Position numbers and translations under genes: made by a program. From Marinilabilia salmonicolor (GTDB lineage: Bacteria > Bacteroidota > Bacteroidia > Bacteroidales > Marinilabiliaceae), in NCBI RefSeq assembly GCF_003003035.1, contig NZ_PVTS01000003.1, positions 1 to 64,000 on the forward strand: a stretch of DNA of 64,000 bases, written 5' to 3'. The notes beneath the pieces are model-generated. The model was not told where the DNA came from, made no database searches, and saw only the letters and a program-made list of their open reading frames with translations. Positions 41,503-43,842 of the stretch are shown piece after piece (the first letter of the stretch is position 1; each line of letters opens with the position of its first letter).

Positions 41503-41574
41503 GAGCCACGGCAGTGGTGATAGTATGGTAAAAAGGACCTCAACTTCTCAAATGCTAAGCCACGGCAGTGGTGA
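41503..41574 (+). repeat. Two direct copies of a palindromic motif upstream of the HTH gene
   Basis: AGCCACGGCAGTGGTGA occurs at 41504-41520 and 41558-41574, 54 bp apart. Each contains the inverted pair CCAC-n4-GTGG, so each is a candidate protein-binding dyad or small hairpin. Flanks also share a little sequence (ATG upstream). They lie about 200 bp before the HTH gene start and could be its operators. Confidence 0.6.
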
Positions 41575-41778: not shown

Positions 41779-42135
41779 ATGAGCTTTAACAAACAACAGA
41801 CCCGTCTTCAGCAACTGGATCGTCTCATCCGGATGCGCTGTACCGGCAATGCCGGAGAATTTGCCCAAAAACTGGAAATCTCACAAAGTTCCCTTTTCTT
41901 ATTGTTACAGACTGCCAAAGAGCTTGGTGCGGAGATTCATTTTAACCATTACCGTTGTACATACGAGTATGAAAATCCCATGCGGTTCACTTGCGGGTTT
42001 GAGGTGATTGACCGCGAAAGGCTTCATCAGACCAGGGGAGATATTTCATGTGGTGAGTTGCCTAATCTTCCGGGAAAGAAAAAACATTCCTTTTTATTTA
42101 GAATTTCTAAAAATTACACCACTCCAAAATTTTAG
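41779..42135 (+). CDS. Small HTH DNA-binding protein of a peptide cassette
   Basis: 118 aa. Residues 5-60 resemble a small winged-helix/HTH unit: RLQQLDRLIRMRCTGNAGEF, AQKLEISQSSLFLLLQTAKE (recognition helix about 33-45), LGAEIHFNHYRCTYEYENPM. This layout (RLxRLDxLIRxxxTG...LxISxSxLxxxLxxxKxLG) is seen in small Bacteroidota regulators encoded beside bacteriocin-like peptides; that statement is from memory. The C-terminal half is unrecognised and has two Cys. The stop codon lies inside a hairpin (42119-42141). It is probably the local regulator of the peptides that follow. Confidence 0.7.
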   Translation: MSFNKQQTRLQQLDRLIRMRCTGNAGEFAQKLEISQSSLFLLLQTAKELGAEIHFNHYRCTYEYENPMRFTCGFEVIDRERLHQTRGDISCGELPNLPGKKKHSFLFRISKNYTTPKF

Positions 42136-42141
42136 GAGTGG
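42119..42141 (+). terminator. Hairpin spanning the HTH stop codon
   Basis: CCACTCC (42119-42125) pairs with GGAGTGG (42135-42141), and the AAAATTTT loop can extend the stem. The TAG stop of the HTH gene is inside it. No T run follows, so it may be an attenuating or mRNA-stabilising hairpin rather than a full terminator. Confidence 0.5.
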
Positions 42142-42242
42142 GCTGCCCTATTTTTACTCTGCATTTTAGTTATCCCGGCCGGAAAATGAATGTCCCGGAA
42201 GCCGAAAAAGGTATGAGTAGGCGGAGATTAAATTTAATTGTG

Positions 42243-42401
42243 ATGAAAAATTATGAGGTTTTATCTGTAACTGAAATGAATTCTTTAAAAGGAGGTCAGA
42301 GAATTGTTGTCAAAATAGATGTCGACGGGGATGGAAAGTGGGATGTAAAACGGGCAACTAATACTCGGACGGGCAAAACGAAGTGTAAAGTTAGGTTTTA
42401 A
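42243..42401 (+). CDS. Double-glycine leader peptide with EF-hand-like loop, copy 1
   Basis: 52 aa from ATG 42243 (the open frame extends upstream to 42138, but MKNYEVLSVTEMNSLKGG is a textbook bacteriocin-type leader start). The leader, residues 1-18, ends in Gly-Gly, the cut site of C39 peptidase/ABC exporters. The core of 34 residues is basic and holds IDVDGDGKWDVK. DVDGDGKWD matches the Ca2+-binding loop DxDxDGxxD of EF-hand and dockerin repeats. One Cys lies near the end (KTKCKVRF). The second peptide follows 18 bp downstream. No exporter or modifying enzyme is encoded nearby. It is possibly a secreted bacteriocin, signal or Ca2+-dependent structural peptide. Confidence 0.7.
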   Translation: MKNYEVLSVTEMNSLKGGQRIVVKIDVDGDGKWDVKRATNTRTGKTKCKVRF

Positions 42402-42419
42402 AGTATAGTAGGTGCAAAA

Positions 42420-42572
42420 ATGAAAAAATTGTGTAAAGATTTTATGAGAAACATCAAAGGAGGTAAAAGAGTTGTAAAAAAGTACGATTTGGATGGGGAT
42501 GGCAAATGGGATTTTAAAACTGTAACGAATAAGGAACGTGGAAAGTTTAAATCGAAAGTCCGCGTAAATTAA
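42420..42572 (+). CDS. Double-glycine leader peptide with EF-hand-like loop, copy 2
   Basis: 50 aa, from ATG 42420 to TAA 42570-42572; it is short enough to be skipped by length filters. It is a diverged tandem paralogue of the preceding peptide. The leader MKKLCKDFMRNIKGG (15 residues) ends in Gly-Gly. The core has KRVVKKYDLDGDGKWDFKTV, then TN, a GK pair and a terminal KVRVN. Positions shared with copy 1 are R-x-V, the whole DxDGDGKWDxK loop, TN, GK and KVR, which argues for coding selection. Here the Cys is in the leader and none is in the core. Confidence 0.7.
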   Translation: MKKLCKDFMRNIKGGKRVVKKYDLDGDGKWDFKTVTNKERGKFKSKVRVN

Positions 42573-42576
42573 TCAA

Positions 42577-42612
42577 TACCGAGGGCAGAACTATTTTCTG
42601 TCCTCAGTATGT
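42577..42612 (+). terminator. Imperfect hairpin after the peptide pair
   Basis: TAC-GAGG-CAGAA (42577-42590) pairs with TTCTG-CCTC-GTA (42596-42609), with single-base mismatches. A weak T-containing tract follows. It could end or attenuate the peptide transcript before the protease gene. Confidence 0.45.
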
Positions 42613-42642
42613 ATTTCTTAACCGTTCATTAATAACATCAGT

Positions 42643-43842
42643 ATGAATAAACAACCCTTTTTAACCCTGATTATTTTCCTAATCCTTGGAATAAATTGCG
42701 GTCATTGTGCTAATCTACCTCTATCCCCTGATAATGAAGTCTTCCCACTTTCTGTCAGTATCGAGAGGGGCAAGTACTTTGCTACCAATGTAAGCATCAA
42801 TGGCAGTCTGGTAGATGGTAAGTTTTTGATCGATACAGGATCGGAAACCATGGTTACTGACGATATCGCCCGTAAAACAGGAATAGCCGGTCGAAAGGAG
42901 AAAGAAATTACCGATGGCTATGAGAATGCTTCTGTTAAAATAGGAAAAGCTGATTTTTCTATTGATGGTGTTAGTTTTAACAAAGTGCGGGTTAATATTA
43001 TTGAGAATTATGATCTTGGCATGGGTATTTTTGATAATGTTTTTGGTATCATAGGTCATGATTTAATGAAAAATTGTGGCTGGAAATTCACGAATGAGTA
43101 CGTTCATATTTTACCTGATATAAAGAAGAAAGATGTTTTCTCCGGATTTGTTTCTGCCAGGCTGGATCTTCAGGCCCGTTCAATCCCCTATTTCGTTGCG
43201 TCTTTTGCCAAACCAAGGTTTACATGCCTGATGGACACAGGCGATGATGGTTTTCTGGAAATTTCAGAATTATTAAAGAATCATATTCCTAATGGGATGA
43301 CCCGCAGGGGATGGGGCAGCGCGGTAACAATGTTGCTTAGCAAGCAAAAAGCAGACAACACCTCGGTTTATGAAATAATAAAAACGGATTCGATGGAGAT
43401 TGCCGGTTATGTTGTGAAACAACCTGTCGCTTACGTGACAAACAATGATGAGGGAGCCTCCATGGGCAGTCAGCTTTTTAATTATTTTGATGTAATAATG
43501 GATTTTCCTAATAAACGGATGTTACTAAAACAAGTAAAAGATATGTATGATGTCCTGATATGGGAAATCTTTGGATTTAGCATTGAAGTGAAACAGGAAG
43601 GAGTGTTTGTGCAATTTGTTTGGGAATACTCTCCAGCATGGGTGGAAGGAATAAGACCCGGAAATCGGGTTCTATCTATAAACTCTTCTAATTACAGAGA
43701 ATTAACTGGAGTGTCCTCTTCAAAAATTTATTCCGAATTTGAAAAGGCAAGAAAACAGTTAGAAATGCAAGTGACTTTAAAAAATGAAAAAGGAGAGCAC
43801 GCGGAATTAATACTATATAAAAAGCAACTATTTTCTGAATAA
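42643..43842 (+). CDS. Exported retropepsin-like aspartic protease with two DTG motifs and a PDZ domain
   Basis: 399 aa. The signal peptide is FLTLIIFLILGINCGHC (cleavage near residue 22), so it acts in the periplasm or envelope. The first retropepsin-like unit has GKFLIDTGSETMVTDDIARK (Asp-Thr-Gly at 64-66) and NVFGIIGHDLM. The second unit has RFTCLMDTGDDGFLEI (198-200) and a matching SMGSQLFNYFDVIMDFPNKR. A PDZ domain follows (about 305-395), with EYSPAWVEGIRPGNRVLSIN. Two units in one chain could make a pepsin-like pseudodimer. It lies 70 bp after the two double-glycine peptides on the same strand. It may process or degrade those peptides, or give immunity; this is inference. Confidence 0.75.
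   Translation: MNKQPFLTLIIFLILGINCGHCANLPLSPDNEVFPLSVSIERGKYFATNVSINGSLVDGKFLIDTGSETMVTDDIARKTGIAGRKEKEITDGYENASVKIGKADFSIDGVSFNKVRVNIIENYDLGMGIFDNVFGIIGHDLMKNCGWKFTNEYVHILPDIKKKDVFSGFVSARLDLQARSIPYFVASFAKPRFTCLMDTGDDGFLEISELLKNHIPNGMTRRGWGSAVTMLLSKQKADNTSVYEIIKTDSMEIAGYVVKQPVAYVTNNDEGASMGSQLFNYFDVIMDFPNKRMLLKQVKDMYDVLIWEIFGFSIEVKQEGVFVQFVWEYSPAWVEGIRPGNRVLSINSSNYRELTGVSSSKIYSEFEKARKQLEMQVTLKNEKGEHAELILYKKQLFSE

Follow-up and report, generated by a model that had tools for sequence, protein, structure and literature searches.

A pared-down double-glycine peptide cassette with an aspartic protease partner in Marinilabilia salmonicolor, and leader-like tails in its regulator family

The cassette and its place among known systems

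In the 64,000-nucleotide stretch of Marinilabilia salmonicolor DNA analysed here (the window; contig C3 of a 4.79 Mb genome, 99.99% complete), four genes on one strand encode a small helix-turn-helix (HTH) protein, two peptides with double-glycine (GG) leaders and an aspartic protease (Table 1). Judged by gene content, this cassette is a pared-down radical SAM (rSAM)/C39 double-glycine peptide operon with an unusual protease partner, because in a related genome (G068) the same peptide-protease pair lies, all on one strand, behind rSAM, C39-ABC and HlyD genes, and neither a C39 exporter nor an rSAM gene of that kind was found in the M. salmonicolor genome. An earlier note on this DNA had placed the four reading frames and their strand correctly and had called the cassette undescribed. 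The label suits the peptide family, measured against Pfam and NCBIfam, but not the kind of system, since rSAM/C39 double-glycine operons are known: the G068 pair follows such genes and congeners substitute an S41 protease, so that the cassette does not form a separate kind. The note's observation is thus partly confirmed, standing with corrections, and its interpretation is partly supported; what it overlooked was a control region at 42120-42221 and, in the HTH protein, a leader-like tail.

The GG leader is shared with the rSAM-modified precursors of TIGR04149 and with C39-HlyD RiPP operons, and rSAM, C39-ABC and HlyD genes stand in one run in G068, G003 and G011. The match to TIGR04149 itself is confined to peptide A, over the leader alone (17.6 bits against a cut-off of 25), and peptide B does not match. 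Differently from these operons, a protease gene belongs to the operon here, and the M. salmonicolor copy lacks maturase and exporter. The bacteroidetocins, as described in the parts of PMC6671954 available to us, are GG-leader peptides of Bacteroidetes with a C39-type exporter; they contain at least two cysteines, and their regions encode a transmembrane protein and an ABC transporter/peptidase and, in most cases, a thiol oxidoreductase. None of these region genes is present in our cassette, and there is one cysteine in core A and none in core B. Long-leader RiPP precursors (Nif11, nitrile-hydratase-like), in the portions of PMC10885120 used here, likewise place a protein domain before the GG site, whereas the domain here is a DNA-binding winged helix whose gene lies ahead of ordinary GG peptides.

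Table 1. Positions of the cassette features in the window, with the three regulator-control heads of G011
Feature	Position	Strand	Basis or remark
Winged-helix-like HTH protein, 118 aa	41779..42135	+	ORF; DNA-binding domain at about residues 1-70
HTH tail with degenerate double-glycine leader signature IDRERLHQTRGD	within 41779..42135	+	alignment and predicted model
Inverted repeat CACTCC-N9-GGAGTG	42120..42140	.	overlaps HTH stop codon; putative operator
Promoter-like -7 box TATTTTTA	42149..42156	+	alignment of 14 loci; TATATTTG in G017
Palindrome CCGGCCGG	42175..42182	.	CTGGCCAG in G068a and G072
DUF805b-like hairpin with GAGTAGG (42215-42221)	42192..42223	+	sub-threshold
Peptide A, 52 aa, GG leader, core IDVDGDGKWD	42243..42401	+	ORF, homologues
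Peptide B, 50 aa, GG leader, core YDLDGDGKWD	42420..42572	+	ORF, homologues
Aspartic protease PF13650, two lobes, C-terminal PDZ-like domain	42643..43842	+	Pfam, homologues
G011 heads	L077 14510-14988; L078 4076-4554; L078 8156-8634		near-identical

The peptides

Peptides A and B have the GG and the core motif in common, as had been noticed, and their leaders place hydrophobic residues at -12, -7 and -4 (L, M and L in A; L, M and I in B), the arrangement of C39-exported double-glycine peptides. Homologous peptides that keep GG and a D-x-(D/N)-GDGKWD core, each adjoining a homologous protease, are found in Marinilabiliaceae bacterium JC017 (G023; same family, phylum Bacteroidota; E 2.7e-6 for the peptide and 1.1e-38 for the protease in a search of 61 genomes) and in G068 (profile E 1.4e-19 among 71 family genomes). 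Peptide and protease recur in two other genera. The gene order that the earlier note proposed to look for in relatives, HTH-peptide-protease, is complete in JC017, whereas HlyD stands upstream of the peptide in G068.

Among the 71 family genomes a convincing peptide occurs in three (E about 1e-19 or better), and the protease follows it in all three; three weaker matches (E 0.02-0.05) lie inside ORFs of more than 400 aa. No further convincing member emerged when the profile was run on 393 genomes of the order: nine genomes besides our own matched at E 6.7e-4 to 9e-3, mostly inside long ORFs, and at L149, a weak match whose locus was inspected, no peptide is present. A scan of genome contigs returned ten loci, with JC017 the sole clear relative; the nine others, judged by title and match length, were short matches in other phyla and were discarded. 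The cassette is conserved, and peptide and protease travel together, though the loci with this peptide are few (three).

When the four peptides are aligned, 20 positions do not vary, KGG and GDGKWD among them. The synonymous sites of the core are saturated in six of six pairs while dN is 0.27-0.44; the cores are therefore coding, as the conservation between A and B had been taken to mean. The leaders are less constrained (dN/dS 1.11 for A against B, on few sites). The proposed calcium loop does not qualify as an EF-hand site, which leaves aside weaker calcium binding by DxDGDG. The EF loop is incomplete, with R in peptide A and T in peptide B where an acidic residue would stand at position 12, and EF-hand_6 is matched by peptide B alone (12.9 bits against a cut-off of 25). 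No Pfam family is reached by either peptide or by the HTH protein.

The protease

The protease passes the cut-off of PF13650 (Asp_protease_2; 32.3 bits, cut-off 24.3). It had been described as a dual-DTG enzyme with a PDZ domain. The aspartate is indeed invariant in both lobes, lobe 1 reading D(T/S)GS in the four proteases compared; in lobe 2, DTG is found in the M. salmonicolor and G068 enzymes but DLG in those of JC017 and G030. Similarity to PDZ is present, yet its 22.6 bits fall below the Pfam cut-off of 23.2. The N-terminus, judged by eye, is hydrophobic and signal-like and suggests export. The predicted structure (pLDDT 31) is unusable for the fold. Maturing, degrading or giving immunity to the peptides are all roles that the protease might play. 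Five distant proteases (L005, L006, L008, L010, L012) have no GG peptide alongside in the ORF lists; the protease family as a whole is therefore not tied to GG peptides.

Exporter and maturase

What would serve the peptides in this genome? The earlier note saw no C39 exporter, and none lies nearby; no C39-containing ABC exporter was found in the 99.99% complete genome. At E 0.001, 40 of the 71 family genomes have a C39 match, which exceeds the cut-off in 39, M. salmonicolor being among these solely through a 21.5-bit Pfam match in a 248-aa frame without a transporter part (L002, G000:C10:169745-169906), which stands alone beside a gene that looks ATP-grasp-like by eye. The C39 ABC exporter is present in G003, G011, G068 and JC017. 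In G003, of the same genus, the order in one direction is HTH, control region, GG peptide, S41 protease, rSAM, C39-ABC and HlyD; in G011 the rSAM, C39-ABC and HlyD genes precede HTH, control region and GG peptide. The cassette of JC017 and its one C39 exporter lie on different contigs, so linkage is not required.

An rSAM of the G003/G068 family is likewise missing from the M. salmonicolor genome at E 1e-20, a threshold at which G003-like enzymes are found in 10 of 71 genomes. TIGR04463 is the nearest family for the rSAMs of G003 and G068, but their 198 and 187 bits fall far short of its cut-off of 525. The rSAM ahead of the G068 cassette (L057:11200-12839, minus strand) looks interrupted, its two parts split by a stretch with stops.

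The state of the exporter can be compared with that of the regulator. In a seven-protein alignment (A6), six HTH proteins carry GG in the tail, and the M. salmonicolor protein has GD at the same place. No C39 was found in G004 (99% complete) or in G002 (89% complete, a contig ending near the operon), and the HTH protein of both keeps GG, so exporter loss alone does not explain the GD.

A fixed head with exchanged payloads

The HTH gene and control region are 83-90% identical to those of the congeners G002, G003 and G004, and the similarity ends at 42229, just before the peptide. Beyond this point the M. salmonicolor operon has the DxDGDGKWD peptides and the aspartic protease, and the three congeners have a different GG peptide and an S41 protease. 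On this alignment, the payload is swapped relative to the three congeners. Head (HTH and control region) and payload (peptide and protease) may behave as separate modules, a proposal that we hold at about even confidence as part of the explanation set out below. The head itself may have recombined, because its block identity to G002 is uneven (81-88% over the first 180 columns, 93-98% over the next 180) and the dS of the HTH gene is low in the tail (0.09 against 0.51 in the domain, on few sites). A protease also follows the GG peptide at other loci: S41 in G002, G003, G004, G031 and G011, and an M28-like enzyme, by eye, in G017.

Payload diversity is also seen inside one genome. G011 has three near-identical heads of HTH and control region within about 13 kb (Table 1), each with a different GG peptide.

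The control region

The interval between the HTH gene and peptide A is a conserved control region with an inverted repeat, a promoter-like box, a palindrome and a hairpin, whose GAGTAGG lies 21 nt ahead of the peptide A start codon. The arms of the inverted repeat vary together in relatives (CACTGC/GCAGTG in G072, for example); the repeat is decayed in G068a and absent in JC017, and the palindrome is missing from JC017 and G068b. The box at 42149-42156 is a putative -7 promoter element. Upstream of the HTH gene there is a direct repeat, GCCACGGCAGTGGTGA (41505-41520 and 41559-41574), which is itself partly palindromic.

A search for the hairpin/GAGTAGG pattern gave 17 matches in 13 of 71 genomes, against 7 with the pattern reversed. 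Downstream of the 17 there is a small GG-leader ORF in 12 cases, a GG leader fused to a larger protein in one and neither in four; these counts include L060, L061 and L066, which were set aside by eye for having neither the upstream part nor a GG peptide. In the fused case (L081:7156-8127, in G072) the GG leader continues in frame into a protein of 323 aa, which has a hydrophobic stretch shortly past the leader.

The hairpin resembles the DUF805b RNA (RF02914) in its CCGAAAA loop and in the GAGTAGG shortly before a start codon; that family precedes many kinds of genes. The M. salmonicolor copy does not reach the gathering score (17 bits, E 0.21, against 35.6 bits), has two of four standard pairs in the stem and, in a genome-wide search with the Rfam model, scores E 0.08, no better than chance matches. 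Three of eight related loci match RF02914 at the E 1 threshold (3.3e-4, 4.2e-4 and 0.079; best 28.0 bits), the M. salmonicolor locus not among them. Across the family the Rfam model matches 56 of 71 genomes at E 0.1 and 14 above the gathering score, and sub-cut-off matches also occur in 6 of 14 control genomes, so weak matches, that in M. salmonicolor (E 0.08) included, prove nothing alone. Over 56 cores, some of them retrieved by the Rfam model and so biased towards pairing, 172 of 224 stem pairs are standard (shuffle mean 101, maximum 131); the fourth pair, standard in just 25 of 56, is unsupported. Covariation support for the hairpin holds for the group, not for the single copy.

An ATG follows GAGTAGG within 40 nt in 54 of the 56 cores, and at L086-L115 such hairpins stand shortly before the start codons of many gene types, GG peptides included. 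The idea of an RNA element specific to GG peptides was dropped, five of the best 30 DUF805b matches preceding a clear GG leader. Cores do follow 16 of 76 HTH genes, and 7 of 67 once the nine HTHs found through the element or the cassette are left out; the other strand gives 0 of 76.

A working explanation and its rivals

Taken together, these features may describe a double-glycine peptide operon without an exporter of its own, whether lost or never present, an explanation that stands at the midpoint of our confidence. The HTH protein would bind the inverted repeat over the peptide promoter and control an operon whose transcript would carry the DUF805b-like hairpin in its 5' leader and encode both GG-leader peptides along with the aspartic protease, which would itself be exported. 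In relatives, cleavage of the leader at GG and export of the core would fall to the C39 exporter, possibly following rSAM modification; in the periplasm the protease would go on to trim or remove the exported core. Since an exporter and a maturase of the G003/G068 family are missing from the genome, the M. salmonicolor pair probably either is stranded or relies on an unlinked system. Gene order, conservation, exporter absence, the control region shared with congeners, the payload swap and the GG signature of the regulator family are seen at the level of sequence; the gene order of G068 need not be ancestral. The frequent position of HTH genes of this family ahead of small GG-leader-like ORFs also favours the explanation. 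On this explanation an orphan peptide-protease pair would be joined to a modular operon family with a fixed control head and exchangeable payloads.

Could the missing exporter mean instead that the cassette is a decaying remnant, with a recombined payload, no exporter and a regulator whose site is lost (GD), now without function? The genome has neither exporter nor maturase of the G003/G068 family, the tail has departed from the GG of the six other HTHs in A6, and the payload is unlike that of the three congeners. The four reading frames are all intact, however, the aspartate is kept in both protease lobes, and both peptides retain GG with the hydrophobic residues at -4, -7 and -12, and we consider decay somewhat unlikely. 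It is improbable, in our judgement, that the stand-alone C39-like protein of 248 aa (G000:C10) cuts the peptides inside the cell, with exit or action independent of a C39 exporter. The protein has a CGPTS stretch like that of C39 peptidases, and similar weak C39 matches occur in frames of 252 and 261 aa in G003 and G031; but its gene is unlinked, its neighbour (by eye) is ATP-grasp-like, it lacks a transporter part, and, given that G003 and G031 have such frames without having the peptide, it resembles a general enzyme.

An antagonist-antidote pair, in which the protease would be immunity against the exported peptides, agrees with the pairing in all three peptide-bearing genomes and with the S41 or M28-like proteases after GG peptides elsewhere. 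We think it quite unlikely; in the parts of PMC6671954 available to us, bacteroidetocin regions are without an immunity gene that their authors could find.

The regulator family and its double-glycine tail

The part likely to surprise the specialist is the regulator. The M. salmonicolor HTH protein, 35% identical to the one at the same place in JC017, is predicted to fold, over residues 1-70, into three helices and two strands (block pLDDT 69-84), followed by a disordered tail. The model has no match in the PDB at E 0.001, the best being winged-helix regulators (E 0.016-0.03). In four genomes of one genus, dN/dS is 0.32 in the tail and 0.12 in the domain.

A search of 344 genomes of the order with the A6 alignment matched 47 genomes at 78 places; 73 of these (leaving out G141, G387:C35, G134, G298 and G112, which were long frames or weak) and the element loci yielded 80 distinct HTH ORFs, of which some are closely related. 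GG stands 9-18 residues past the domain in 31 of 45 tails of at least 20 residues (shuffle mean 1.8, maximum 7), and in 23 of 36 without the nine HTHs found through the element or the cassette. In 32 GG tails, a hydrophobic residue (V, I, L, M or F) occurs at -4 in 21, at -7 in 23 and at -12 in 26; elsewhere it occurs in 1-4 at -5, -6 and -8 to -11, in 6 at -3 and in 13 at -13. This register matches the -4, -7, -12 hydrophobic register of C39 leaders given in a figure legend of PMC10885120, in the portion of that source used here.

Because the first search covered the GG columns, a second profile was built from the HTH domain alone (26 sequences, 23 from GG-tailed members). Over 395 genomes of the phylum it matched 66, the weaker matches mostly inside much longer ORFs. 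A long tail is present in 21 of the 29 listed loci besides our own (one of the 29, L220, being common to both sets), with GG in 15 of 21. In 16 GG tails of this set, hydrophobic residues occur at -4 in 13, at -7 in 5 and at -12 in 13; the register is less sharp because nine also have one at -3. At L199, L201, L206 and L217 the tail has AG where others have GG.

Genes of this family often stand ahead of GG peptides. Of 76 HTH genes, 30 have a small ORF with a GG-like leader downstream, and the other strand gives 1 of 76; leaving out the nine element or cassette HTHs, the figures are 22 of 67 and 1 of 67, and in the second set they are 17 of 27 and 2 of 27. GG tail and GG peptide co-occur: 21 of 32 against 9 of 44 (Fisher p 1e-4, uncorrected for kinship). 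C39 or HlyD frames occur in 9 of 94 HTH loci, at 8 places, and in none of the 36 control loci; as the control has a third of the bases, the excess is modest.

Tentatively, and at less than even confidence, we suggest that small winged-helix regulators of Bacteroidota bear their own double-glycine leader and C-terminal peptide, and that the C39 exporter of neighbouring GG peptides would cut and export the tail. One polypeptide might then be both DNA-binding switch and exported peptide, or the tail might be a leader mimic that senses exporter load; the M. salmonicolor protein would be a member changed to GD in an exporter-less genome. The tails point to a broad class of DNA-binding proteins that bear a putative cleavage site of the export type and, if the suggestion is true, gene control would be coupled directly to peptide export, a simple secretion-coupled route in Bacteroidota. 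The GG-tailed HTH may also serve as a handle for finding unannotated small GG peptides. The literature searched, including PMC10352776, PMC8939145, PMC6671954 and PMC10885120 in the parts available to us, contains no description of an HTH protein with a GG tail.

Many ORFs of 320-430 aa are matched by the HTH domain profile as well. WYL-type regulators would fit these matches, and such ORFs may be the origin of the small HTH proteins.
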